Assembly: GCF_008704395.1 (NCBI RefSeq) | Contig: NZ_CP023695.1 | Location: forward strand, 6,634,001-6,698,000 | DNA: 64,000 nucleotides | Reading direction: 5' to 3' | Source: Streptomyces alboniger | Lineage (GTDB): Bacteria; Actinomycetota; Actinomycetes; Streptomycetales; Streptomycetaceae | In this document: piece after piece, positions 8,867 through 22,024 of the stretch | How the letters are laid out: each line of letters starts with the position of its first letter | Position numbering within the stretch: position 1 is the first letter of the stretch | The notes under the pieces: generated by a model | Seen by the model: only the letters and a program-made list of their open reading frames with translations | What the model was told of the DNA's origin: nothing | Databases searched by the model: none | Position numbers and translations under genes: made by a program

Positions 8867-8979
8867 GCGGTCCCGGGCATCCGGCGGGCCGTCTCGTACG
8901 CATCACCCGATGACTCGGGGGCAGTGTTCCAGCACGGCCTGGTTGACAACTTCTGCTTGCTGATCAACAGTTGGTGATT

Positions 8980-9963
8980 GTGGATCTGGACCTGGCGCTG
9001 GTGCGATCGTTCGCGATCACCGCGGAAGAGCTGCACTTCCGGCGCGCGGCCGAGCGGCTCTTCATCACGCAGCAGGCGCTGTCCCAGCGGATCCGGCGCC
9101 TCGAACTGCTGCTGGGCGTCTCGCTCTTCGTCCGCGGCAACCGCAGCGTCGCGCTCACCGAGGAGGGGCAGCGGTTCCTCGCGCCGGCCCGCCGGGTCAT
9201 GGAGGCCGCCGACGCGGCCGTCCAGGCCGTCCAGCCCCGTGAGCGCCGCCCGCTGCGGGTCGACGTGGTCGACGGACGGCTCGCCCCGCTCCAACTGGTC
9301 CGCAAGCTCCTTGAGGAGGACCCCGAGCTGCCGCTGAACCTGAGCATGCGGCAGTCGCTCGCCGCCGCGCTGCCCGCGCTGGCCAGGGACGAGATCGACA
9401 CGGCGTTCGGCCGGGTCCATGACGTGCAGGGCTGGTCGGCGGAGTTCTCGCACCGCCTCGTGCGCCTCGAACCGCTGCGAGCGCTGGTGCCGCGCACCCA
9501 CCCGCTGGCCGGCCGCGACGAGGTGCGGATCGATGAGCTGCGGAGCTGCGGCATCTGGCAGCCGCGCAACGGAGTGGCGTCGGAGTGGGAGCACTATGTG
9601 CGCCGCCTGGCCGACTCCTTCGGTCTCTCGCTCGCCTTCTCGGGCGCGGCACTGAGCGATGAGCACTTCCTGGAACACCTGTGGAGCCACGGCGAGATGG
9701 CGTGCCTGGCCGGGGCGGACGTCTCCTACGCCTTCTCGCCGGACATCAGGAGCATCCCGCTCGTCGACCCCACGCCGGTCTACCCGTGGTCGATGGTGTG
9801 GCGTCGGCAGGCGGGCCATCCGCTCGTCGACCGGCTGGTCGGTCTGGCCAAGCGGTCGGCCGGAGACTGGCTGACCCACGTGCCCGGGGAGATCTGGCTG
9901 CCGGCGCCCGACCGGGCCCTGCTGCGCGGCGCGGGGGTCGACGTGGACGCCGTCCGGGGCTGA
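8980..9963 (+). CDS. LysR-family transcriptional regulator
   Basis: A protein of about 327 residues with the LysR helix-turn-helix at residues 1-60 (ELHFRRAAERLFITQQALSQ) and a periplasmic-binding-like effector domain from about residue 85. GTG 8980 gives the family-typical opening MDLDLALVRSF. TTG 8971 and GTG 8974 are alternatives, and none has a clear ribosome binding site. A TTGACA at 8943-8948 and the imperfect palindrome ATCAACAGTTGGTGAT just before the start could belong to its promoter and autoregulatory site. It stands 284 bases upstream of napH, the first puromycin gene, in the same direction. It is the only regulator next to the cluster, but control of puromycin genes is not shown. 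Confidence 0.85.
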   Translation: MDLDLALVRSFAITAEELHFRRAAERLFITQQALSQRIRRLELLLGVSLFVRGNRSVALTEEGQRFLAPARRVMEAADAAVQAVQPRERRPLRVDVVDGRLAPLQLVRKLLEEDPELPLNLSMRQSLAAALPALARDEIDTAFGRVHDVQGWSAEFSHRLVRLEPLRALVPRTHPLAGRDEVRIDELRSCGIWQPRNGVASEWEHYVRRLADSFGLSLAFSGAALSDEHFLEHLWSHGEMACLAGADVSYAFSPDIRSIPLVDPTPVYPWSMVWRRQAGHPLVDRLVGLAKRSAGDWLTHVPGEIWLPAPDRALLRGAGVDVDAVRG

Positions 9964-10247
9964 ACCGGCCATCATCAAGAGGCGCGACACGCGGCGCCTG
10001 GCGTGAACTTGATCGTTTGTGCGGCGCGCGGCGCGGGTATCCGAGGGCGCCGCCGTCCCGGTGCGAGGCCGGTAGTACGGGCCGTAAGTACGTTCCAAAA
10101 CGCCATCGGATCACTGTGTCAAGCCCCAGCTGAGACGTCCGGATTCCGGCGATACTCTTTACGGTTTTTTGGGGCGCAAGAATTGCCCGGGTAATGTGCT
10201 GGTCGTTGATGCGAACTCACAGAAGCACCACTGGATATGGGGGAAAC

Positions 10248-11705
10248 GTGCTTCACCGGATCCAGAGAAAAAGAGCGATGACCGCAGGCGCGGTCGGTGT
10301 GCTCTTTCTCGCGCAGCTTGTGATTAGTTCCTCTTCGGCTGCGGCGGGGGAATCCGAGGTCACCCCGCCGCCGCTCTCCCAGGATCGGATAGAAAAGCAT
10401 CTGACGCGGTTCGAGCGCATTGCGGACGCGCACGGCGGCGACCGTGCATCCGGCACGCAAGGATATGCGGAATCGGTCGACTACACCGAAAAGCTGCTCA
10501 AAAAAGCGGGATACTCGACGCAGCGCCAGCAATTCCCTTTCCGCTACACCAGGACGCTTGAGGAAAAGCTGGTGCTGCGGGACGGCAGCACACCCGGAGT
10601 CGTGGTCAGCGGCTACTCGCAGTCGACCCCCCGAGGCGGCCTGACAGCACGGCCGACGGCGGTCGGCGGGGACACCGAGCGGCGGCAGGGCTGCCGCGCC
10701 GGCGCGTACGACGGAGTGCCGGCTGGCGGGCGGATCGCGCTCGTCGACGCCGGGGGCTGCTCGATGGACGACAAGCAGCGGGTGGCCGCCGACGCCGGCG
10801 CGGCCGCCGTAATCGTCGCCAACACCGGCCCCGGCGAACTGCACACCTGGCTGGCCGACCCCGAGGCGGCCCGCATACCCATCGGCGGCGTCACCCAGGA
10901 GACGGGCCGCCTCCTCGCCGCCGAGGCACGGGCCGGACGCACCGTCCAGCTCACCCTGCGCTCGCTCACCGAACGCCGTACCACCGAGAACCTGATCGCC
11001 GTGAGCCCCCGCGGCAACCCCGAGCACACCGTGGTCTCCGGCGCCCACCTCGACTCCGTGCCGGAGGGGCCCGGCATCAACGACAACGGTGTCGCCGCCG
11101 CCGTACTGCTCGAAAGCGCCCTGGCGGCCGCCAAGGACCACGGCACCCGGGCCGAGGACAACCGGCTGGTGTTCGGCTTCTGGGGCGCGGAGGAGTTCGG
11201 CCTGCTCGGCTCGCAGCACTACGTCGACTCGTTGACCCAGGAGGAGCGTGAGCGCACCGGGCTGTACCTCAACCTGGAGATGATCGGCAGCCCCAACTAC
11301 GGTCTCTTCACGCTGGATTCCAAGGCCACCGACCCCGTCACAGGACAGCGCCCGGCCCCCGGCTCGGACGAGATCGAGCGCGAGCTGACCGACGCGTTCG
11401 CCGCCCAGGGCCGCACCTCCCTGCCGGGACCCGCCGACGGGCGCTCCGACTACGTGGCGTTCCTGGGCGCGGGCATCCCCACCGGCGGGCTCTACGGAGG
11501 CTCGTTCGAGGCCAAGACCCCCGAGCAGGCCGCTCTGTGGGGCGGCACCGCTGGCCGGCCGTACGACCCCTGCTACCACCTGACGTGCGACAGGACGGCG
11601 CAGTACAGCCGCGAGGCGGCGACGCTGCACGGGCAGGCGTTCCAGACGGTGCTCACCCACTACTCCCGGCACCGGCTGGGAGAGGCAGCCGCCCACCATG
11701 GCTGA
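10248..11705 (+). CDS. napH: N-acetylpuromycin N-acetylhydrolase (secreted M28 metallopeptidase)
   Basis: A 485-residue secreted enzyme that removes the acetyl group from N-acetylpuromycin outside the cell, releasing active antibiotic. The signal peptide covers about residues 1-35. A protease-associated (PA) domain lies near 130-235. The M28 zinc aminopeptidase domain follows, with probable ligands and catalytic residues His267, Asp279, Glu315, Glu344 and His444 (GAHLDS, INDNG, WGAEEFG, NLEMIG, CYHLTCD). GTG 10248 is preferred because GGGGGAAA precedes it; ATG 10278 is an alternative. It is the first gene of the plus-strand puromycin unit and overlaps pur7 by eight bases. Assignment rests on motif content and on the known S. 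alboniger cluster order. Confidence 0.93.
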   Translation: MLHRIQRKRAMTAGAVGVLFLAQLVISSSSAAAGESEVTPPPLSQDRIEKHLTRFERIADAHGGDRASGTQGYAESVDYTEKLLKKAGYSTQRQQFPFRYTRTLEEKLVLRDGSTPGVVVSGYSQSTPRGGLTARPTAVGGDTERRQGCRAGAYDGVPAGGRIALVDAGGCSMDDKQRVAADAGAAAVIVANTGPGELHTWLADPEAARIPIGGVTQETGRLLAAEARAGRTVQLTLRSLTERRTTENLIAVSPRGNPEHTVVSGAHLDSVPEGPGINDNGVAAAVLLESALAAAKDHGTRAEDNRLVFGFWGAEEFGLLGSQHYVDSLTQEERERTGLYLNLEMIGSPNYGLFTLDSKATDPVTGQRPAPGSDEIERELTDAFAAQGRTSLPGPADGRSDYVAFLGAGIPTGGLYGGSFEAKTPEQAALWGGTAGRPYDPCYHLTCDRTAQYSREAATLHGQAFQTVLTHYSRHRLGEAAAHHG

Positions 11706-12156
11706 CGGGACCGCGCCCAAGCTGGTGGTGGGTGCGCTCATCAGCGATCCGCTCGGCCGGATCTTCGTACAGCGCCGCTCGGCCGACCGGCGCCTGTTCC
11801 CCGCATGCTGGGACGTCGTGGGCGGCGCCGTGGAGGACGGCGAGACCCACCACGAGGCACTGGCCCGGGAGATCGCCGAGGAGACCGGCTGGCGGCTGCG
11901 CCGGGTGCTGGCCCGGGTGGTGCACGAGAGCTGGACGGCGGACGGCGTACGGCACCTCGAGTCGGACTACGTCGTCGAGGTGGACGGGGACCTGTCGTCA
12001 CCCACGCTCGAACGGGACAAGCACCCGGAGTTCGCGTGGGTGGGGCCGCAGGACATCTCCCTGCTCGACGAGAACGTCCGGCGCGGCGCCGGCACCTTCA
12101 TCAAGGACACGGTCGCCGCCGGACACGACTGGCTCGCCGGATCCACGCGCCGCTGA
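11698..12156 (+). CDS. pur7: NUDIX hydrolase acting on 3'-amino-3'-dATP
   Basis: A 152-residue NUDIX protein with a complete box GGAVEDGETHHEALAREIAE followed by ETGW (GX5EX7REUXEEXGU). In the puromycin pathway this enzyme hydrolyses the toxic chain-terminating analogue 3'-amino-3'-dATP to the monophosphate and pyrophosphate. It thereby both advances the pathway and protects RNA synthesis in the producer. It starts inside the last codons of napH (eight-base overlap), so translation is coupled. The substrate assignment comes from published work on the S. alboniger cluster; the sequence alone shows only the NUDIX fold. Confidence 0.93.
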   Translation: MADGTAPKLVVGALISDPLGRIFVQRRSADRRLFPACWDVVGGAVEDGETHHEALAREIAEETGWRLRRVLARVVHESWTADGVRHLESDYVVEVDGDLSSPTLERDKHPEFAWVGPQDISLLDENVRRGAGTFIKDTVAAGHDWLAGSTRR

Positions 12157-12240
12157 GCCCTCCCGGCCGTCCTCAATACTTCGTTCTTCGTCATCGTCAC
12201 CGTCATCGGCAGAGGCAATCACGCGAGGGGGAAGTTCCGC

Positions 12241-13257
12241 ATGTCCACTTATTCACAGAAGCGTGCGCAACCGCGGCTGCGGGCCCTGATGGTCGGATTC
12301 GCAGGCCACCAGGGAAAGGAGTACTTACCGGTCGTCCGGGAGTACGCAGACATCGTCGGGGGCGTCGATGTCGCCCCTGCGGCGGGGGCGCTCGCCGATG
12401 ACTGGGGATTTCCGCGGTTCACCGGGATCGGCGAGGCACTCAAGCGGGTCGACTTCGATGTCGCGATGGTCACCGTGCCGCACAGCGAACATTTCCCGCT
12501 GTGCAGAGAACTGCTGCTGCACGGCAAGCACATCGTCAAGGAAAAGCCGTTCGCCGTCACCGAGGAAGAGGCCCGGCAGCTGATAGAGCTGGCCGAAGGA
12601 GCGGACCGCAGCGTTTACACGCTCCTCCAGCGCAATTTCAACCCGGTCTTCCAGTTCGCGCGGAAGAACCTGGCCCGCATCGGCGATCCCTACTGGTTCT
12701 CGTACGACTACCACTTCAACCTGGCGCAGCCGACGAGCGGTTGGCGCGCCTCCCGCGAACAGGCCCTCGGCGGGGTGCTGCTCGACATGGGCTACCACCT
12801 CATCGACGTGCTCAGCGGAATGTTCCCCGAACCGAGCCGCGTGAACGCCGCCTTCGTCCACCACTACCAGGAGATGCGCGACCGGCACCTGGAGGACCTG
12901 GTCAGCCTGATGTGCAGCTACCCGTCGCCGACCCTGTCCGGCTCGCTGCGCATCTCCCGGCACAACCACGAGAAGTCCGAACGCCTCTGCGTCCTCGGCA
13001 CCGGGGGCGCGCTGAACGTGGAACCCCAGGGCGCCACCCTGCACTCCACCGGCGGCCGCCTCCTCGAACGCTTCACCCGCCCCGGACCCAAGACCGACGC
13101 GGTCCGCGCCATGATCGCCCACTACCTCGGACACCTGGACGACCGGGACGTACGTGAGGACCACTTCCGTCGGCAACTCACCACCGTGCGCGTGATCGAC
13201 GGGATCTACCGGGAGCGGTCACGGGAGCGGAACGAACTCGCCGATCGGTACAGCTGA
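12241..13257 (+). CDS. pur10: NAD-dependent ATP 3'-dehydrogenase (Gfo/Idh/MocA family)
   Basis: A 338-residue oxidoreductase proposed to start the pathway by oxidising the 3'-hydroxyl of ATP. The N-terminal Rossmann fold is at residues 12-125, with the conserved KEKPFAV motif. The C-terminal sheet domain carries the catalytic-type motif GGVLLDMGYHLIDVL. Codon 29 is TTA (12325-12327), the rare leucine codon read by the bldA tRNA, so expression may depend on development. It lies 84 bases after pur7, the largest plus-strand gap in the cluster after the pur5-pur3 gap. The preceding gap contains GAGGGGGAAG as ribosome binding site. Confidence 0.93.
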   Translation: MSTYSQKRAQPRLRALMVGFAGHQGKEYLPVVREYADIVGGVDVAPAAGALADDWGFPRFTGIGEALKRVDFDVAMVTVPHSEHFPLCRELLLHGKHIVKEKPFAVTEEEARQLIELAEGADRSVYTLLQRNFNPVFQFARKNLARIGDPYWFSYDYHFNLAQPTSGWRASREQALGGVLLDMGYHLIDVLSGMFPEPSRVNAAFVHHYQEMRDRHLEDLVSLMCSYPSPTLSGSLRISRHNHEKSERLCVLGTGGALNVEPQGATLHSTGGRLLERFTRPGPKTDAVRAMIAHYLGHLDDRDVREDHFRRQLTTVRVIDGIYRERSRERNELADRYS

Positions 13258-13289
13258 TCCTCACCGTCCCGAGGCACCTGGAGAGAAAC

Positions 13290-15608
13290 GTGACGTTAAG
13301 CATCACTCTGACGCGCACACCGGGGGAGTATCTCGCCGCGGCCCTGGACCGCCCCGCCACCGCACCCGCCGCCGTCCCTGTGCTCGACCCCACGGGCCGC
13401 CATGTGTGGCCCCGCCGGATCGCCGCACGCCTCGGCCTGCCGCTGACCACCGCCCACGACCCGGACCGGCCCGCCGGCCCCGCGGCCGCGGCCGGTGACG
13501 CCACCCGTGACGAAGACGTCCTCCTGGGCGCCGCCCTCACCGAGCTGCGCACCGGCCGGGAGGAGCATCTCGTCGTGGCCGTCGCCCACGGCGACGACCA
13601 CGCCTTCGCCCACCCGGCGGCCGTCTACGCCCTCGCCAAGCGCGCCCGGCTGCTGTCGGCGGCGAACGAGGACGACATCCACCGGACCGTACGGGACACC
13701 GCGCCCCGCTTCCTGACCCTCGTCGGACCCGCCCGGCTCCTCGACTTCGGCCTCGTCACACGGATACGGGCCCGCTTCCCCGCCCTCGACGTCGGCGTCC
13801 TGTACGCGCACAGCGCCGCCAAGCTCAGCGAGCTGGTCCTCAAGACGCTCGTCTACCCCGAGGCCCCCGCCACCGCTGACGTGCTGATCGCCCCGCTCCT
13901 CAAGGGCGACGAGCCCCTGCGCAACGGACAGCTGACCGTCTACCCGCAGGACGCCGTCGACGCCGCCACCTTCACACGGCCCGCCCCCCGGCCCGGCGTC
14001 GCCACCGCCGAACCGCGGGATCCGGCCGAACCGGCCCCGATGCACCGCCTGTTCAGCGTCATCACCCACGGCAGCGAGGACTACCTGCGGCTCACCTCGC
14101 AGGACATCCTGTGCGGCCTCACCCCCGACCCCGCCGAACAGGCCGCGGCACGGCGGGAGTCACGCACCCTGCCCGCCTGCATGCACGGCGGCGACTGCGT
14201 CTATCCCGACGCGCGGCGCTGGGACCCGGCCGGCATCCCCGCCCAGATCGTCTTCGCCAACGCCTGCCTCACCCTCAAACTCGGCACCCAGCTCTTCGGC
14301 AGCCACAACCGCTTCACCGTCGCCCAGCGCTTCCTCGACTCCTGGGCAGGCACCTACATAGCCAGCCCGCTGCTCAAGGACGGCACCCCCGGCGAGAACC
14401 TGCTCTTCCACTACCTGCTCGACGAGGGCGCCACCGTCGGCGGCGCGGTCCGCCAGGTCAACGACAGCCTGCGGCGCTGGGGCGTCGACGCACCCGAAGT
14501 GCTCGTCATCGGCGACCCGGAGGCCCGCTACGCCCCCGCCGCGGCACGGCCGGTGCCGGACGCGGTGACCTGCCAGGAGGAGCCGGGCCGCGCCGAGATC
14601 ACCTTCGAGGGGAGGCTGCCCGCCTTCACCCGCGTCCCTCTCAAGGACCCCGACCTGCGCGAGGCCCACCGCGGCGGACAACTGCGCCTCGTCCCCGCCA
14701 AGCCGTTCGGCGGCAAACTGCCCCTCTACGGCACGTTCGGCGAAACCGCCGACGGAGAACCGGCCGCGCTGGTCTTCGGGTTCCAGGAACGCCGGCTCTC
14801 CGGCACCGAGACCTCGCGCACCCTCACCGCCGCCCCACGGCAGCGGACCGCGGCCGACCGCATCGTGCGCGCCGTGGAGCGCTACGAGAACCTCGCCGCC
14901 CTCGACATCAAGCTCGACAAGACCCGGTCGGTGCTCACCGACACCGCCAACAGCCTGCCCGCCGTGGCCCGCAGGACCAAGGACCACATCGCGGACCTGA
15001 CCCAGTCGGAGCCGCTGCACCGCGCCACCGAGCGCATCCTTGCCAACTGCGCCCGCCTCGACCGGCACCTGCTCGACACCCTGCTGCGCCTCACCGAGAC
15101 CCGCGAGTACCACTTCGTGGAGGCGTACCGGCCCACGTACGCCGTCGAAGAGGTCCGCAGCCCGTACGGCGAGTGCCGGTACTGCGGCGAGGCCACCCAC
15201 CGCTACACCAGCGCCCATGTGCTGCGCCCGTGGCTGTGCCGCCTGCTGATCAGCTGCCCCGTGTGCGGCGCCACCCAGGACACCGAGGACGCCACGGTCG
15301 GCATCGCCATCGAAGGGGACGCCGTCCTCGCGCCCGACAGCACGACCTCGCTGCGGGCCCGGATCACCAACGACGGAGACCAGGAACTCGACCTGCTCCT
15401 CGGGGCCCGCATCACCCGCGGCAAACCGCACGGCTTCCGGTTCGCCCTGAGCCCGGACCGGCTGACCGTCCCCGCGGGCGGCACCGCCACCTCCCACCTG
15501 ACCATCACCACCGGCCGGCCGACGTCCCTGCACGCCATGCTGCTGCGCTTCTACGCCGTCGGCCTGGGGCGCATCGACTTCGCGGGCCGCGATCTGCGGT
15601 TCCGCTGA
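13290..15608 (+). CDS. pur6: Pur6, assigned to tyrosine-aminonucleoside ligation; caspase/CHAT-like layout
   Basis: A 772-residue protein whose place and size match Pur6, the product assigned in S. alboniger to joining tyrosine to the aminonucleoside. I see no aminoacyl-tRNA synthetase, ATP-grasp or adenylation motif. Residues about 255-410 instead follow the order of clan CD cysteine peptidases and CHAT domains. His260 lies in VITHGSEDYL and Cys326 in IVFANAC. A later Gly-rich strand follows, with a closing VLVIGDPEARY. Near the C-terminus, Cys629/Cys632 (CRYC) and Cys656/Cys659 (CPVC) form a probable zinc ribbon, followed by an immunoglobulin-like beta region. Codon 3 is TTA. The start is GTG with GGAGAG upstream. 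Gene identity is secure; the mechanism is not. Confidence 0.85.
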   Translation: MTLSITLTRTPGEYLAAALDRPATAPAAVPVLDPTGRHVWPRRIAARLGLPLTTAHDPDRPAGPAAAAGDATRDEDVLLGAALTELRTGREEHLVVAVAHGDDHAFAHPAAVYALAKRARLLSAANEDDIHRTVRDTAPRFLTLVGPARLLDFGLVTRIRARFPALDVGVLYAHSAAKLSELVLKTLVYPEAPATADVLIAPLLKGDEPLRNGQLTVYPQDAVDAATFTRPAPRPGVATAEPRDPAEPAPMHRLFSVITHGSEDYLRLTSQDILCGLTPDPAEQAAARRESRTLPACMHGGDCVYPDARRWDPAGIPAQIVFANACLTLKLGTQLFGSHNRFTVAQRFLDSWAGTYIASPLLKDGTPGENLLFHYLLDEGATVGGAVRQVNDSLRRWGVDAPEVLVIGDPEARYAPAAARPVPDAVTCQEEPGRAEITFEGRLPAFTRVPLKDPDLREAHRGGQLRLVPAKPFGGKLPLYGTFGETADGEPAALVFGFQERRLSGTETSRTLTAAPRQRTAADRIVRAVERYENLAALDIKLDKTRSVLTDTANSLPAVARRTKDHIADLTQSEPLHRATERILANCARLDRHLLDTLLRLTETREYHFVEAYRPTYAVEEVRSPYGECRYCGEATHRYTSAHVLRPWLCRLLISCPVCGATQDTEDATVGIAIEGDAVLAPDSTTSLRARITNDGDQELDLLLGARITRGKPHGFRFALSPDRLTVPAGGTATSHLTITTGRPTSLHAMLLRFYAVGLGRIDFAGRDLRFR

Positions 15609-15664
15609 CCGCCCACCGGCCCGGCACCCCGGAGCCACGCCACTCCCCACGCCAGGAAGGACCC

Positions 15665-16954
15665 ATGACCACCGCCGACAAGCTCGCCCTCCTCGGAGGC
15701 ACCCCGGCCATCGACCGGCCGCTTCCCCACGAGATCTGGCCGCCCCGCGCGGACGAGGCCGAACTGGCCGCACTCACCGAGCAGCGCAACACCGACATCT
15801 CCATCAAGGGCAACAGCGGCCCCATCGGCCAACTGGAAGCCGAATTCCTCGCCTTCCTCGACCACGGCGTCCGCTACGCCGTCACCTTCAACTCCGGCAC
15901 CAGCGCCCTGCTCGCCGCCTACTTCGCACTCGGCGTACGCGAGGGGGTCGAGGTGGCGGGGCCCGCGCTCACCTACCACGCCGCGCTCAGCCCCGTCTTC
16001 GCCCTGCGCGGCGACGTGGTCCTCGTCGACATCGACCCCGTCAGCCGCGGCCTCGACCCCAAGGCCCTGGAAGCGGCGATCACCGAGAACACCCGGGTCG
16101 TCACCGTCGTCCACCAGTGGGGGCACCCCTGCGACATGGACGCGATCCTGGGCGTCGCCGAGCGCTACGGACTGCGCGTCCTGGAGGACTGCTCCCACGC
16201 CCACGGCAGCCGCTACAAGGGAAAGCCGGTCGGCACCTTCGGCGACGCCGCGGTCTTCTCCCTCCAGGCCAACAAGGCCGTCTACGCGGGAGAGGGCGGC
16301 ATCCTCGTCACCGACGACGCGCTGGTGCAGGACCGCGCCACCCTCCTCGGCCACTACCGGGACCGCTCCCGGGACTCGGTCATCGACGAGGAGCTGCGCT
16401 CGCACTGGGTGACCGGCTTCGGCCTGAAGCTGCGGATGTCGCCGTTCAACGCGATCGTCGCCCGGCACTCGCTCGCCGCCTTCCCCGCCCGCAAGGAGGC
16501 CCGGCACCGCTGTCTGCGCCACTTCGGCGAGTTGCTTCGCGAGGTGGACTACCTGGAGCCCATCACGGTCCCCGACCACGTCGACATGGGCGCCTGGTAC
16601 GGCTACAAGCCCCTCTACCGGCCCGAGGCGCTGGGCGGCGTCCCGCGCTCCGTACTGATCGAGGCCCTGCGGGCCGAGGGCATGGAGGTCGGCGCGCCGT
16701 CCGGCCCCCGGCTGGCCACCCTGCCGCTGTACGCGCGGCCGGAGAACCCCCTCTTCCCCGGCACCCCCAAGCGCGCCAGCGCACCGGAGCCCGGCTCGCA
16801 AGCCGCCCATGTCGAGCAGCACGCCCTGTCCTTGCCCACCTTCACCGACTGGCCCGAGGACGTGGCGCTGATCGAGGCCTACGCCGAGGCCTTCCGCAAG
16901 ATCGGACGGCACCGGGAGGCGCTGGCCGCCCACGCCGCCGAGACCTCCCGGTGA
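15665..16954 (+). CDS. pur4: 3'-keto-3'-dATP aminotransferase (DegT/DnrJ/EryC1/StrS family)
   Basis: A 429-residue PLP enzyme of the sugar aminotransferase family. NSGTSALLAAYFALG near residues 79-93 binds cofactor phosphate. EDCSHAHGSRYKG holds the Asp that contacts the pyridine nitrogen. SLQANKAVYAGEGG contains the Schiff-base lysine. In puromycin synthesis it places the 3'-amino group on the ribose after Pur10 oxidation. ATG 15665 follows AGGAAGG at good spacing and lies 56 bases after pur6. The length is at the upper end for the family. Assignment is by family plus conserved cluster order. Confidence 0.93.
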   Translation: MTTADKLALLGGTPAIDRPLPHEIWPPRADEAELAALTEQRNTDISIKGNSGPIGQLEAEFLAFLDHGVRYAVTFNSGTSALLAAYFALGVREGVEVAGPALTYHAALSPVFALRGDVVLVDIDPVSRGLDPKALEAAITENTRVVTVVHQWGHPCDMDAILGVAERYGLRVLEDCSHAHGSRYKGKPVGTFGDAAVFSLQANKAVYAGEGGILVTDDALVQDRATLLGHYRDRSRDSVIDEELRSHWVTGFGLKLRMSPFNAIVARHSLAAFPARKEARHRCLRHFGELLREVDYLEPITVPDHVDMGAWYGYKPLYRPEALGGVPRSVLIEALRAEGMEVGAPSGPRLATLPLYARPENPLFPGTPKRASAPEPGSQAAHVEQHALSLPTFTDWPEDVALIEAYAEAFRKIGRHREALAAHAAETSR

Positions 16955-17010
16955 CCCCCGGCACCCCGACAGCTTCCACGATCCCGTCACCCTCACAGGA
17001 AAGGTCAACC

Positions 17011-17697
17011 ATGACTGTCAAGGAATCCCCCGAGGCCGCCGCCAAGGTCCTCGAGCACGTCATGACCGGGGACGACCTGCCGGACGACTTCTCCCTGCTG
17101 GGCCGCGAGTGGACCCTGCACCGCGGCGTCTTCCCCGGCACCCTGACCGCCGCCACCGAGGTCATGGCCTCGATCGTGCCCTATCCCAAGGGCGGCTCCT
17201 TCCTGGAGGTCGGCTGCGGCACCGGCGTCATCTCCGTGACCGCGGCGCTCCACGGCAGCGACGTCACGGCGCTCGACATCAACGAGAAGGCGGTGGCGAA
17301 CACCCTCGCCAATGCCGAGCGGCACGGCGTCGAGGACCGGGTGCGGGTGCTGCACAGCGACCTGTACGCGGCGCTCGAACCCACCGACCGGTTCGACGCG
17401 ATCTTCTGGAACGTGCCCTGGACGTACGTGGAGGACGGCTTCCCGCTCTCCAGCGACCTGCACTCCGCGGTCTTCGACCCCGGCTACCAGGGCCAGTCCC
17501 GGTTCATCTCCGGGGCCCGCGACCACCTGGCCGACGGCGGCCGGCTGCTGATCGGCACGGCCGATCTGGGAGACCGCGAGCGGATCGACGCCTTCGCCGC
17601 CGAGGCCGGGATGACCGTCGAGATGCTGCGCCGCGTACGCCGTATCGAGGTCGTCCGGGTCATGGAGTACCACCTGCTCGAACTGCGCGCCAAGTGA
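17011..17697 (+). CDS. pur5: Class I SAM methyltransferase, puromycin N-methylation
   Basis: A 228-residue methyltransferase. Motif I is EVGCGTGVISV (residues about 67-77), followed by the acidic motif LDINEKA. FWNVPW replaces the NPPY-type catalytic motif of N-methyltransferases acting on planar amines or glutamine (HemK/RsmC-like). In S. alboniger it is assigned to dimethylation of the purine N6. The Asn-Val-Pro-Trp variant suits an exocyclic adenine amine. AGGAAAGG precedes ATG 17011. The gap to pur3 (82 bases) ends in a strong GGAGGAGG. Confidence 0.93.
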   Translation: MTVKESPEAAAKVLEHVMTGDDLPDDFSLLGREWTLHRGVFPGTLTAATEVMASIVPYPKGGSFLEVGCGTGVISVTAALHGSDVTALDINEKAVANTLANAERHGVEDRVRVLHSDLYAALEPTDRFDAIFWNVPWTYVEDGFPLSSDLHSAVFDPGYQGQSRFISGARDHLADGGRLLIGTADLGDRERIDAFAAEAGMTVEMLRRVRRIEVVRVMEYHLLELRAK

Positions 17698-17779
17698 GCC
17701 GGCCGCCCCGGCGGGCACTTCCCCCGGCCCGCCGGGGCGGCCCCCCGACCCCGTGTCCCGTCGAGGAGGAGGCACCTTC

Positions 17780-18601
17780 ATGCCACAGCAGGCCGACCTG
17801 GAACTGGCCATGCGACTCGCCGACACCGCCGACCGCATCACCACCCGCCGCTTCCAGGCGCGCGACCTGCGGATACGCGAGAAGCCCGACCGCACCCCCG
17901 TCACCGACGCGGACACCACCGTCGAGGCGGCCGTACGCGAGTCCGTGCGGGCCGCCCGGCCCGACGACGACTTCGCGGGAGAGGAGACCGGCGGCGAGGT
18001 GACCGCAGGACGCACCTGGATCGTCGACCCCATCGACGGCACCAAGAACTTCCTGCGCGGAGTGCCGGTCTGGGCCACGCTGATCGCGCTCCTGGAGGAC
18101 GGCAGGCCCACCGTCGGCGTCGTCGCCGCGCCCGCCCTGCGCAGCCGCTGGTGGGCGGCGGCCGGGCACGGGGCCTGGCTGCGGCGCGGGTCCGCCGGCG
18201 CCGAACCGCTGCGGCTGCACGTCTCCGGTGTCGCCCGCCTCGAAAACGCCTATCTGTCCACCACCAACACCCGTACCTGGGACGCCTTCCACTCGCGCGC
18301 GGCGTATCTGCGACTCGCCGACGCCTGCTGGGAGGACCGCGCCTTCGGCGACTTCCTCCAGCACTGCATGGTCGCCGAGGGCACGGTCGACATCGCGGCC
18401 GAACCGGTCGTGAGCCCCTGGGACATCGCCGCCCTCCAGATCCTCGTGGAGGAGGCGGGCGGCGTCTGCACCGACCTGCTCGGCGGCTCGCCCCAGCGCG
18501 GGACGGGTGCCCTGTCCGCCAACCCGGAGCTGCACCGGCTCGCCGTGGAGGCCCTCGCCGCCCCCGCGGCCGCCACGACCGGTGCCGCCACCATCCCCTG
18601 A
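17780..18601 (+). CDS. pur3: Aminonucleoside monophosphatase (inositol monophosphatase family)
   Basis: A 273-residue magnesium phosphatase. The metal-site motif DPIDGTKNF (residues about 85-93) and the second site VSPWDIAAL near 213 are intact, as is the upstream EET. In the pathway it removes the 5'-phosphate of 3'-amino-3'-dAMP, giving the aminonucleoside. It is most similar in style to the histidinol-phosphate phosphatase (HisN) branch of the family. ATG 17780 is preceded by GGAGGAGG. It is followed 37 bases later by pac, in the same operon. Confidence 0.92.
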   Translation: MPQQADLELAMRLADTADRITTRRFQARDLRIREKPDRTPVTDADTTVEAAVRESVRAARPDDDFAGEETGGEVTAGRTWIVDPIDGTKNFLRGVPVWATLIALLEDGRPTVGVVAAPALRSRWWAAAGHGAWLRRGSAGAEPLRLHVSGVARLENAYLSTTNTRTWDAFHSRAAYLRLADACWEDRAFGDFLQHCMVAEGTVDIAAEPVVSPWDIAALQILVEEAGGVCTDLLGGSPQRGTGALSANPELHRLAVEALAAPAAATTGAATIP

Positions 18602-18638
18602 CCCACGCCCCTGACCCCTCACAAGGAGACGACCTTCC

Positions 18639-19238
18639 ATGACCGAGTACAAGCCCACGGTGCGCCTCGCCACCCGCGACGACGTCCCCCGGGCCGTACG
18701 CACCCTCGCCGCCGCGTTCGCCGACTACCCCGCCACGCGCCACACCGTCGACCCGGACCGCCACATCGAGCGGGTCACCGAGCTGCAAGAACTCTTCCTC
18801 ACGCGCGTCGGGCTCGACATCGGCAAGGTGTGGGTCGCGGACGACGGCGCCGCGGTGGCGGTCTGGACCACGCCGGAGAGCGTCGAAGCGGGGGCGGTGT
18901 TCGCCGAGATCGGCCCGCGCATGGCCGAGTTGAGCGGTTCCCGGCTGGCCGCGCAGCAACAGATGGAAGGCCTCCTGGCGCCGCACCGGCCCAAGGAGCC
19001 CGCGTGGTTCCTGGCCACCGTCGGCGTCTCGCCCGACCACCAGGGCAAGGGTCTGGGCAGCGCCGTCGTGCTCCCCGGAGTGGAGGCGGCCGAGCGCGCC
19101 GGGGTGCCCGCCTTCCTGGAGACCTCCGCGCCCCGCAACCTCCCCTTCTACGAGCGGCTCGGCTTCACCGTCACCGCCGACGTCGAGGTGCCCGAAGGAC
19201 CGCGCACCTGGTGCATGACCCGCAAGCCCGGTGCCTGA
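18639..19238 (+). CDS. pac: Puromycin N-acetyltransferase (Pac), self-resistance
   Basis: A 199-residue GNAT-family acetyltransferase. It uses acetyl-CoA to acetylate the tyrosinyl amino group of puromycin and its precursors, which blocks ribosome action. The acetyl-CoA loop is VGVSPDHQGKGLGSAV (about residues 126-141), and the C-terminal NLPFYERLGF is typical of GNAT. As far as I can recall, the whole sequence is identical to the S. alboniger enzyme widely known as a selection marker. This is the strongest species indicator in the window. AAGGAG lies before ATG 18639. Pac and NapH form a mask/unmask pair. Confidence 0.98.
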   Translation: MTEYKPTVRLATRDDVPRAVRTLAAAFADYPATRHTVDPDRHIERVTELQELFLTRVGLDIGKVWVADDGAAVAVWTTPESVEAGAVFAEIGPRMAELSGSRLAAQQQMEGLLAPHRPKEPAWFLATVGVSPDHQGKGLGSAVVLPGVEAAERAGVPAFLETSAPRNLPFYERLGFTVTADVEVPEGPRTWCMTRKPGA

Positions 19239-19287
19239 CGCCCGCCCCACGACCCGCAGCGCCCGACCGAAAGGAGCGCACGACCCC

Positions 19288-20418
19288 ATGGCTCCGACCG
19301 AAGCCACCCGGGGCGGCCCCGCCGACCCCGCACCCGCCCCCGAGGCCCACCGCGGGGGACACACCGAACACGCCGACCCTGCTGAACACGCGGCGCAGTT
19401 CGGTGCCCAGGAGCGGATCCTGACGCTCGTATGGGGCTACATCTCCTCCGAGATCCTGGACCTGGCGACGCGCCTGGACCTCCCCGACCTGATGGGGACG
19501 GAGGAGCGCGCCGCCGCCGAGCTGGCCGCTTCCCTGGACACCGACCCCGTCGCCACGCTGCGCCTGCTGCGTGCCTTCGCCGCGCTCGGCCTGGCCGAGG
19601 AGACCGGGGCGGGACGCTTCCGGCTGACGCCGGCCGGCCACCGGCTCCGCACCGACGTGCCCGACTCGCTGCACGCCTTCGTCCGCCAGGGCATGGGCGT
19701 CTTCCGGCAGGCCTGGTCCCACTTCGACCACAGCATCAGGACCGGCGAACCCGCCTTCGACCAGGTCTTCGGGACCGACTTCTTCTCGTACCTCTCCGAA
19801 CGGCCCGAGCTGTCCGGCACGTTCACGTCCTCCATGCGCGAGGCCACCCGCACCATGAGCACCGCGCTCGCCAAGGAGGAGGAGTACGACTTCTCGTCGT
19901 ACGGCACCGTGGTGGACATCGGCGGCGCCGACGGATCCCTGCTGGCGGCCGTGCTGAGCGCGCACCCCGGCGTCGAGGGCGTGGTCTTCGACTCGCCGGA
20001 GGGGGCACGTGACGCGGCCGCGACGCTGGACGCCGCCGGGGTGGGGGAGCGCGGCCGCGTCGAGACCGGGGACTTCTTCACCCGGGTGCCCGGCGGAGGC
20101 GACCTCTACGTCCTCAAGAGCATCCTGCACGACTGGAGCGACGCGCGGTCGGCGGACATCCTGCGGACCGTCAGGGCCGCCATGCCCGCCCACGCCAGAC
20201 TGCTCGTCGTGGAGGTGCTGCTGCCCGACACGGTGGACAGCTCCGCGCATCCGCTCGGCTACCTCAGCGACCTGTACATGCTGGTGAACATGGGCGGGAG
20301 GGAGCGCAGCGAGCGGGACCTGCGCTCGCTGCTCTCGGACACCGGGTTCCGTACGACCCGGGTCCGCACGCCGCCCGGCCTCACGCCGTTCTCCCTCATC
20401 GAGGCCGCGCCGGTGTGA
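19288..20418 (+). CDS. dmpM: O-demethylpuromycin O-methyltransferase
   Basis: A 376-residue SAM-dependent O-methyltransferase of the plant-caffeate/TcmN type. An Ala/Pro/His-rich N-terminal tail of about 45 residues is followed by a winged-helix dimerisation domain (QERILTLVWGYISSEILDLA). The methyltransferase core has VVDIGGADGSLLAAVL near residue 210 and the catalytic-type His in LKSILHDWSD. In the pathway it methylates the tyrosine hydroxyl to give the O-methyltyrosine of puromycin. ATG 19288 follows AAAGGAG. Its last 23 bases overlap the end of the convergent pur8 gene. Confidence 0.95.
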   Translation: MAPTEATRGGPADPAPAPEAHRGGHTEHADPAEHAAQFGAQERILTLVWGYISSEILDLATRLDLPDLMGTEERAAAELAASLDTDPVATLRLLRAFAALGLAEETGAGRFRLTPAGHRLRTDVPDSLHAFVRQGMGVFRQAWSHFDHSIRTGEPAFDQVFGTDFFSYLSERPELSGTFTSSMREATRTMSTALAKEEEYDFSSYGTVVDIGGADGSLLAAVLSAHPGVEGVVFDSPEGARDAAATLDAAGVGERGRVETGDFFTRVPGGGDLYVLKSILHDWSDARSADILRTVRAAMPAHARLLVVEVLLPDTVDSSAHPLGYLSDLYMLVNMGGRERSERDLRSLLSDTGFRTTRVRTPPGLTPFSLIEAAPV

Positions 20419-21907
20419 CCGAGGCCGAGCCGGTCTCATCGGCCGCCTCGGTACGGGAGTCGATGAGCACCCAGGCGAGCACCGCCGTCAGCAGCAGCAC
20501 GCCGACGGCGAAGGCGATGGCCACGGTGTAGCCGTGCACCGTGCCGTCGACCGTGGCGGCGGGCGAGGTGCCGTGGTCGGCCAGGTAGGCGGCGGTGGCG
20601 CCGGTCGACACCGTGTTCAGGAGGGCCACCCCCAGCGCGCCGCCCACCTGCTGGGCGCTGTTGACCACGGCCGCCGCCGCCCCCGCCTCGTGCGGGGCCA
20701 CCCGCGCGGTGGCCGTGTGCATCGCGGGCATCATCATGCAGCCGATGCCGAGCCCGATGAGGATCTGCGCGGGCAGCAGATGCGTCAGATACACCTGCGG
20801 CGTGTCCGGTTCGAGCCGGGTGAGCAGCGCCATGCCGGCCGCGGCCGCCAACAGCGCGCCCACGATGAGCGTGCGCGGCCGGGTACGGGGCAGCAGCCGG
20901 GCCGCGATCAGCGAGGAGCCCACCGCGATCCCGAGCCCGAGGGGCAGGAAGGCGACACCCGTCAGCACGGGCGAATAGTCCAGGATCCCCTGGAGGTAGT
21001 ACGTCAGGAACAGAAAGAGGCCGAACAGACCGATCTGCGGCAGCCCCACGACCAGGAACGACCCGCCCCGCACCCGATGGGCCACCACCCCGGGCGGCAG
21101 CAGGGGATCCTGGACGCGCCGCTCGACCAGCGCGAACGCCACCAGCATCAGCACGCCGAGCACGAGCAGCCGGACGACCAGCGGATCGCCCCAGCCGCTC
21201 TCGGCCTCGGCGAACGCGTAGACGATCGCGACCAGTCCGCCGCAGCCGAGCAGCGTGCCGGGCAGATCGAGCCGCACGGCCCTGCCCGTCCGCCGGTCGC
21301 GCGGCAGCAGACGGCAGCCGAGCAGGGCGAGCAGCGCGACCGGCGCGTTGACGTACAGGCACCAACGCCAGTCGAGGTACTCGGTCAGCAGACCACCGGC
21401 CAGCAGGCCCACGGCCGCGCCGCCACCGCTGACCGCTCCGTAGACGCCGAACGCCTTGCCGCGCTCACCGGGTTCGGTGAACAGCGTGTTGATCAGCGCC
21501 AGCGCGGCGGGCGCGAGGGCCGCGGCGAAGACGCCCTGGAGGGCGCGGGCTAGGAAGAGGGTGCCCGGGTCGGGGGCCGCGCCGCCGAGCAGCGAGGCGA
21601 GCCCGAAGCCGAGGATCCCGACCGCGAAGATCCGTCTGCGCCCGAACGCGTCGGCGACCCGGCCGCCGAGCAGCAACAGGCCCCCGAAGGCCAGGGTGTA
21701 GGCGGTGATGACCCACTGGCGGCTCGTGTCGGACATACCGAGATCGCGCTGGACCGAGGGCAGGGCGATATTGACGACGGTCCCGTCGAGGACCACCAGC
21801 AACTGCGCGGCCAGGATGACCACAAGCCCCCACCAGCGGCGCGGATCCGGTCCCTGACAGGCGGCCGATTCCACAGGAACAGCAGAGATATCTGGCTTCC
21901 GCGCCAT
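20396..21907 (-). CDS. pur8: MFS efflux transporter of the puromycin cluster (DHA2 type)
   Basis: A 503-residue, probably 14-helix major facilitator of the drug:H+ antiporter-2 family. It has the DGTVVNIALPSVQRDL motif in the first helices, GGRVADAFGRRR (motif A) and GPxxGG-like VGLLAGGLLTEYLDWRW (motif C region). In S. alboniger Pur8 confers puromycin tolerance and is thought to export puromycin or its acetyl form. ATG 21907 is preceded by AGGAGG. It runs opposite to the rest of the cluster, converges on dmpM with a 23-base overlap of coding ends, and has its own promoter region upstream (21908-22117). Confidence 0.95.
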   Translation of the reverse strand: MARKPDISAVPVESAACQGPDPRRWWGLVVILAAQLLVVLDGTVVNIALPSVQRDLGMSDTSRQWVITAYTLAFGGLLLLGGRVADAFGRRRIFAVGILGFGLASLLGGAAPDPGTLFLARALQGVFAAALAPAALALINTLFTEPGERGKAFGVYGAVSGGGAAVGLLAGGLLTEYLDWRWCLYVNAPVALLALLGCRLLPRDRRTGRAVRLDLPGTLLGCGGLVAIVYAFAEAESGWGDPLVVRLLVLGVLMLVAFALVERRVQDPLLPPGVVAHRVRGGSFLVVGLPQIGLFGLFLFLTYYLQGILDYSPVLTGVAFLPLGLGIAVGSSLIAARLLPRTRPRTLIVGALLAAAAGMALLTRLEPDTPQVYLTHLLPAQILIGLGIGCMMMPAMHTATARVAPHEAGAAAAVVNSAQQVGGALGVALLNTVSTGATAAYLADHGTSPAATVDGTVHGYTVAIAFAVGVLLLTAVLAWVLIDSRTEAADETGSASVTPARPR

Positions 21908-22024
21908 GGACAGCAGCCTCCTGAAGGGGGAAAGGGCGTAGCACCCCCGACAGCCCAGCAAAGAGTGCGAAGCACTGTCCAACAACCATCGGTTCGCCGC
22001 CGACAACGAGCCGTTGTGGCCGCG

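Follow-up and report, generated by a model that had tools for sequence, protein, structure and literature searches.

Pur6 of Streptomyces alboniger as a probable distant relative of BlsK and putative aminoacyl-tRNA-dependent aminoacyltransferase

The amide bond of puromycin, in which tyrosine is joined to an aminonucleoside, is attributed to the protein Pur6, which we studied in a stretch of 64,000 nucleotides from Streptomyces alboniger (assembly GCF_008704395.1, contig NZ_CP023695.1, positions 6,634,001 to 6,698,000 of the forward strand). This whole stretch is called the window, and its own numbering is used for the positions of pur6 and its neighbours. The title of the 2004 paper on Pur6 calls the protein a synthetase (tyrosinyl-aminonucleoside synthetase). 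A study from 2024 (PMC11641026) describes the key step of puromycin amide formation as enigmatic and Pur6 as being without an activating domain, compares its residues 139-404 to gingipain R, with C326 near the gingipain C244, and reports transfer RNA (tRNA) genes for cysteine (tRNA-Cys) at the ends of some clusters. Its authors propose an aminoacyl-tRNA as the amino acid source of Pur6 and place C326 in an active intermediate. The same fold, cysteine, and donor are proposed there for the cystocin synthase CstB, which belongs to the same branch as Pur6; cystocin, the cysteine counterpart of puromycin, is reported from a strain that carries a cst-type cluster. In a word search, histidine, zinc, iron, and BlsK were absent from the main text of PMC11641026. 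Here and below, statements on publications refer to excerpts of their texts or, where so indicated, to their titles.

A second point of comparison comes from blasticidin S, for which the title of the 2021 BlsK paper, cited by a review on leucine, presents a tRNA-dependent aminoacyltransferase that is a [3Fe-4S] cluster protein. BlsK and Pur6 both belong to nucleoside antibiotic clusters, and BlsK differs in its acceptor and its amino acid. In the BlsK study, Leu-tRNA is reportedly the donor, and the cluster is said to be needed for activity. The leucylation of blasticidin caps a side chain that already exists (PMC5572114), whereas the step assigned to Pur6 forms the main amide. For BlsL, also of blasticidin S, the published assignments differ: it is listed as an ATP-grasp enzyme in PMC11641026 (Results 2.3), while it is shown to be a methyltransferase in PMC5572114.

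Gingipains R and K (family C25, clan CD) resemble Pur6 in the modelled fold of residues 90-415, in the order of a His followed by a Cys, and in having an immunoglobulin-like (Ig-like) domain. Pur6 differs from them in having no Pfam C25 match and in carrying a three-Cys insertion between the His and the Cys, and its family differs in its biosynthetic setting and in not keeping the His throughout. The aminoacyl-tRNA-dependent enzymes covered by a 2026 review (PMC12945691) have folds like those of aminoacyl-tRNA synthetases (aaRS), GNAT folds, cyclodipeptide synthase folds, or PEARL folds. AcmF, SbzA, the GNAT-fold transferases, the cyclodipeptide synthases, and the PEARLs use an aminoacyl-tRNA to make an amide or peptide bond, as is proposed for Pur6; unlike for Pur6, no caspase/gingipain-like fold is named for them in the excerpts of that review, and the words puromycin and caspase are absent from its main text.

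Our sequence comparison indicates that a wide family, found mostly in actinomycetes, includes Pur6 as one branch and the proteins in the blsK slot (slot K) of blasticidin-type clusters as another. What is new here is the grouping of Pur6 with these slot-K proteins in a family marked by four invariant Cys. PMC11641026 regards the enzyme type as confined to puromycin-like antibiotics, a view that the wider family contradicts. No link between Pur6 and BlsK came up in the open-access literature, where the leucine review was the only text found to name both BlsK and blasticidin; subscription papers were outside the scope of this search, and such a link may be discussed in the BlsK paper. The pur6 open reading frame (ORF) and the parts of its product on which the argument turns are as follows:

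13290..15608, + strand: pur6 ORF, GTG start, 772 amino acids plus stop, with the same start in close relatives
13557..14534, + strand: gingipain/caspase-like domain predicted from the model, residues 90-415
14067..14069, + strand: codon of His260, kept in 43/51 rows of the main alignment
14112..14114, + strand: codon of Cys275, proposed cluster/metal ligand, 51/51 rows
14178..14180, + strand: codon of Cys297, proposed cluster/metal ligand, 51/51 rows
14196..14198, + strand: codon of Cys303, proposed cluster/metal ligand, 51/51 rows
14265..14267, + strand: codon of Cys326, putative fourth ligand or nucleophile, 51/51 rows, near gingipain C244 (PMC11641026)
14850..15101, + strand: long helices in the model's secondary structure, residues 521-604, a possible tRNA arm
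15174..15266, + strand: CxxC...CxxC ribbon, residues 629-659, Cys near-invariant in the 51-row alignment
15297..15605, + strand: Ig-like beta domain, residues 670-772

The sequence GGAGAG lies 4 bases upstream of the GTG start codon. An hhalign comparison of Pur6 with the slot-K proteins gave a probability of 95.2% (E 2.7e-8) over 496 columns, covering Pur6 residues 138-772, at about 21% identity, and the slot-K proteins share with Pur6 the four Cys, the His, the ribbon, the Ig-like end, and a gingipain-like model. A tree built from 55 rows groups the Pur6/Cst rows together (support 99) and sets the blsK-type rows apart from the Pur6 rows, on one side of a branch with a support of 100; its deep branches are weak, and five rows outside the blsK-type list fall beside or among the blsK-type rows. 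The 17 blsK-type loci were picked by neighbour content, one of them (L079) being a contig of 7 kb that carries a single marker, and many of their rows are close copies.

A protein search with Pur6 returned 15 proteins, Pur6 itself included, and a search with the alignment of the Pur6 branch (A2) returned the same 15. With a relative from Nocardiopsis kunsanensis as the query, 7 proteins were found, including the query and two named as Xenorhabdus; a plasmid search with the Xenorhabdus relative gave no match. At the genome level (E <= 0.001), the A2 profile matched 1/396 and 6/392 genomes, the broader A4 matched 13/394, and the still broader A5 matched 61/394, in genome sets that overlap in part and with some weak matches spanning only the ribbon and the Ig part. 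From the 61 genomes matched by A5, 38 stretches were taken, leaving aside the matches limited to the ribbon and Ig part, as well as G1155, which lies at a contig end. A Pur6-like ORF is present in 49 of 50 loci, a value that is no frequency, the loci having been chosen for having a match. L102, which has no Pur6-like ORF, and the second part of the split gene in L033 were excluded from the counts; L033 is absent from the tree, and P0002 and P0018, which are copies of the queries, were removed from alignment A3.

The main alignment comprises 51 rows, Pur6 and 50 relatives, one row being truncated and many being mutually close; 45 of the 50 relatives are 15-24% identical to Pur6. Only C275, C297, C303, C326, and G408 are invariant in all 51 rows. 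A preliminary description of the gene, made from the sequence alone, had pointed to H260 in THGS (259-262), C326 in FANAC (322-326), a closing IGDPEARY (407-414), and the CxxC pairs CRYC (629-632) and CPVC (656-659), and had read them as a caspase/CHAT-fold protein with a zinc ribbon and not a ligase. All these positions are exact, and H260 and C326 do not form a chance pattern, both being invariant, together with C275, C297, and C303, in the 22 aligned Pur6/Cst rows. The observation is thereby confirmed as correct and perceptive, and is partly in print already; the interpretation built on it is, as a whole, partly supported. It overlooked C275, C297, and C303, which lie between H260 and C326 and are as conserved as C326. 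With 68 rows and two other alignment modes, C275, C303, and C326 are kept in 68/68, C297 in 68 or 66, and H260 in 60 rows.

H260 precedes C326, in the order of clan CD, and a Cys-His dyad does not extend to the whole family (Cys 51/51, His 43/51). The acyl-enzyme dyad that had been suggested is therefore weakened as a family mechanism, given that C275, C297, and C303 always accompany C326, that H260 is lost in 8/51 rows, and that the slot-K relatives correspond to a protein presented in a paper title as an Fe-S protein. Since the conservation of C326 goes together with that of three other Cys rather than with that of the His, a shared Cys site is favoured, and the acyl-enzyme idea is therefore left open but not favoured. 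The four invariant Cys of Pur6 may be the site of an iron-sulfur (Fe-S) cluster, with the four Cys of the ribbon (C629 in 48, C632 in 50, C656 in 50, and C659 in 49 of the 51 rows, one of which is truncated) as the alternative. Three Cys are enough for a [3Fe-4S] cluster, so that C326 could still act as a nucleophile.

No Pfam or NCBIfam family matches Pur6 above its cut-off, and, as the preliminary description had stated, these searches find no ligase or adenylation domain in it. Its sequence has no match in the PDB at E <= 10, nor do the Pfam families C25, C14, and CHAT match it at that level. Nine Pfam families match the 16 family members scanned at E <= 1, C25, C14, and CHAT not being among them, and neither ATP-grasp nor adenylation nor aaRS families match at this threshold; the four Pur6-like proteins scanned with NCBIfam had no match. 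In profile searches of the PDB, the best E was 0.088 with alignment A2 (Transcription factor E) and 0.12 with the blsK-slot rows. For the structural model, Foldseek relates the caspase-like part best to gingipains, which come up only in a second look at the matches, and next to separase and CHAT. The clan-CD-like part of the suggested caspase/CHAT fold thus appears to stand on the model, with CHAT ranking together with separase, behind the gingipains. The four-Cys ribbon is borne out by two CxxC knuckles at 629/632 and 656/659, and Zn_ribbon_3 is a weak Pfam match in 3/16 members (best E 0.04).

By analogy with BlsK, we consider it rather likely that Pur6 is a distant BlsK relative and an aminoacyl-tRNA-dependent aminoacyltransferase. 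The tyrosyl-tRNA synthetase (TyrRS) of the host would make Tyr-tRNA, which Pur6 would bind without itself using adenosine triphosphate (ATP), and the 3'-amino group of the aminonucleoside would take the tyrosyl group from the tRNA ester to give the amide. The preliminary description had offered either a cysteine acyl-enzyme or another protein that supplies activated tyrosine, and the latter is the better-supported half, the supplier presumably being the host TyrRS by way of Tyr-tRNA. The active domain would be the gingipain/caspase-like fold with its insertion, and its centre would consist of H260, C275, C297, C303, and C326. Like BlsK, according to the title of its paper, this centre probably holds an Fe-S cluster; C326 would then be either a cluster ligand or a hemilabile ligand/nucleophile beside a three-Cys cluster. 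The part of Pur6 that grips the tRNA probably comprises the long helices together with the CxxC ribbon and the Ig-like domain. A broader reading, to which we give somewhat less than an even chance, is that a caspase/gingipain fold became an Fe-S aminoacyl-tRNA transferase whose old catalytic Cys was drawn into a four-Cys site beside the old His, and that Pur6, CstB, and BlsK are the known faces of a large, unnamed family of actinomycete clusters. An Fe-S cluster at the four Cys, if present, would put the caspase fold to a use not met in the literature searched.

Several results weigh against the assignment of Pur6 as a BlsK-like transferase. BlsK itself was placed in slot K by gene order only, and Pur6 compared with one blsK-slot protein alone reaches E 0.039. 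Foldseek's own best 50 matches include no gingipain and are mostly matches of the Ig-like end, and residues 327-342, right after C326, have a predicted local distance difference test (pLDDT) score below 50 in the model. ARAGORN found 0 tRNA genes in the 64-kb window, and aaRS or tRNA neighbours occur in few of the 49 loci, whose neighbours were Pfam-scanned only in part, so that other aaRS genes may have escaped notice; a class I aaRS motif scan of the neighbours gave no output, but it also missed the arginyl-tRNA synthetase (ArgRS) of locus L088. Genes of the ATP-grasp or AMP-binding type are present within 9 kb at 11/17 blsK-type and 17/27 other loci, and at 1/5 Pur6/Cst loci, these counts being made by BLAST groups without a random control, with Pfam run on 4 ATP-grasp and 3 AMP-binding members, and being lower bounds, as the gene picker seems to drop some true genes for opposite-strand frames. 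The presence of such neighbours outside the Pur6 branch implies that other family members may get their acyl groups elsewhere and need not all use a tRNA.

It is conceivable, although unlikely in our view, that C326 and H260 form a true clan-CD dyad, in which tyrosine would pass from Tyr-tRNA or a Tyr ester to a thioester on C326 and from there to the aminonucleoside, while C275, C297, and C303 would hold a structural zinc or a three-Cys cluster. The residue order fits the fold, both residues are invariant in the Pur6/Cst rows (22/22), and a [3Fe-4S] cluster on the other three Cys would leave C326 free. The proximity of C326 to the gingipain C244 (PMC11641026) also speaks for it. However, C326 behaves like the other three Cys and not as the partner of a His, being kept in every row, whereas 8 rows lack H260 and the tree, which holds 7 of these 8, requires at least 4 changes of the His state. 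We give a still lower probability to the idea that the family Cys bind zinc only, which would make Pur6 a tRNA-positioning zinc protein and would place the Fe-S cluster of BlsK elsewhere or make it BlsK-specific. Both four-Cys sets suit zinc, the weak Pfam ribbon matches are of the zinc kind, and none of the analyses tells metals apart; yet the cluster in BlsK is reportedly required for its activity, and a [3Fe-4S] cluster is named in the title of the BlsK paper.

That Pur6 itself activates tyrosine with ATP through an unrecognised site seems very improbable. Such a site would agree with the word synthetase in the 2004 title and could lie in residues 420-520, which have no assigned fold, but the 16 members scanned match no ATP-grasp, adenylation, or aaRS family, and the fold list, whose 50 entries scarcely cover the middle part (420-620), contains no ATP-dependent ligase. 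In the annotated slot-K cluster, moreover, the Pur6 relative adjoins a separate ATP-dependent ligase, unlike Pur6 with its ten scanned neighbours. The grouping with BlsK narrows the question of how puromycin's amide bond is formed to concrete choices: Tyr-tRNA or ATP, iron or zinc, and which Cys. The family also flags many uncharacterised clusters, whose products may contain tRNA-derived amino acids.

Domain annotation of the window covered ten neighbours of Pur6 within 8971-21925 (E <= 0.001): a LysR regulator, an M28 peptidase, a NUDIX hydrolase, a GFO/IDH/MocA oxidoreductase, a DegT aminotransferase, two methyltransferases, an inositol-phosphatase-family protein, a GNAT acetyltransferase, and an MFS transporter. 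None of them has the domain of a tyrosine-activating enzyme at this threshold, in agreement with what had been said of the cluster genes. The neighbours closest to pur6, from the domain scan, are:

11698..12156, + strand: NUDIX gene, which we take to be pur7
12241..13257, + strand: GFO/IDH/MocA oxidoreductase gene, presumably pur10
15665..16954, + strand: DegT aminotransferase gene, presumably pur4
17011..17697, + strand: methyltransferase gene, presumably pur5
17780..18601, + strand: gene of an inositol-monophosphatase-family protein, which we take to be pur3
18639..19238, + strand: GNAT acetyltransferase gene, presumably pac
19288..20418, + strand: O-methyltransferase gene, which we take to be dmpM

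The neighbourhoods of other family members vary. In Nocardiopsis, a tRNA-Cys gene with a tRNA fold and a terminal CCA lies about 650 bp past the Pur6-like gene; two more tRNA-Cys genes were identified in the same genome by pattern search, which makes the cluster copy an extra one. In L088 (7105-8979, 8889-11318, and 3827-3900, all on the - strand), a Pur6-like gene is directly followed by a complete ArgRS gene, and two FemAB-like genes, an ATP-grasp gene, and, 5 kb away, a tRNA-Cys with G after the anticodon are also nearby. The L088 genome has two strong ArgRS matches (100%, 60%), compared with one each in two comparison genomes (49%, 44%), and weaker matches occur in all three; at least one further tRNA-Cys candidate was found in the L088 genome by pattern search. 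The ArgRS of L082, 7-8 kb from its Pur6-like gene, was dropped from consideration, as it may be the genome's ordinary copy, and tRNA calls in L013, L033, L065, L066, L088 (Arg), and L097 were not used as support.

L013 (5637-7601, 8848-10983, 15382-17964, and 18016-19143) has two Pur6-like genes in one cluster, one of them without the His, along with a full alanyl-tRNA synthetase (AlaRS) gene, a short AlaRS-like gene, an adenylation/carrier gene, and a B12 radical SAM gene. Its AlaRS was considered as a sign of tRNA use and dropped, since a 375-residue gene product there with a weak AlaRS match resembles the AcmD/AcmF pair (PMC12945691); the AlaRS genes probably serve another enzyme.

Haem_oxygenas_2 genes occur near Pur6-like genes in L029 (5896-11373; three, one match being below the curated cut-off) and in L014 (2315-11045; one). 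In L032 (8741-11367), a TIR-domain gene stands back to back with the Pur6-like gene, and no biosynthetic cluster was recognised around it. The Pur6-like gene of L033 is in two overlapping frames (9247-10317 and 10193-11077), owing to a frameshift or a sequencing error. Two loci are on plasmids. L106 (6355-6744), on the plasmid NZ_CP093367.1 of Bombilactobacillus, a lactic acid bacterium from Tetragonula carbonaria, has a Pur6-like match that is weak (32% over about 131 residues) and falls in a region annotated as small hypothetical proteins. L107 (8938-10809), on the Streptomyces plasmid NZ_CP107895.1, carries its Pur6-like gene within a cluster that resembles the one for arginomycin and includes beta-methylarginine genes.
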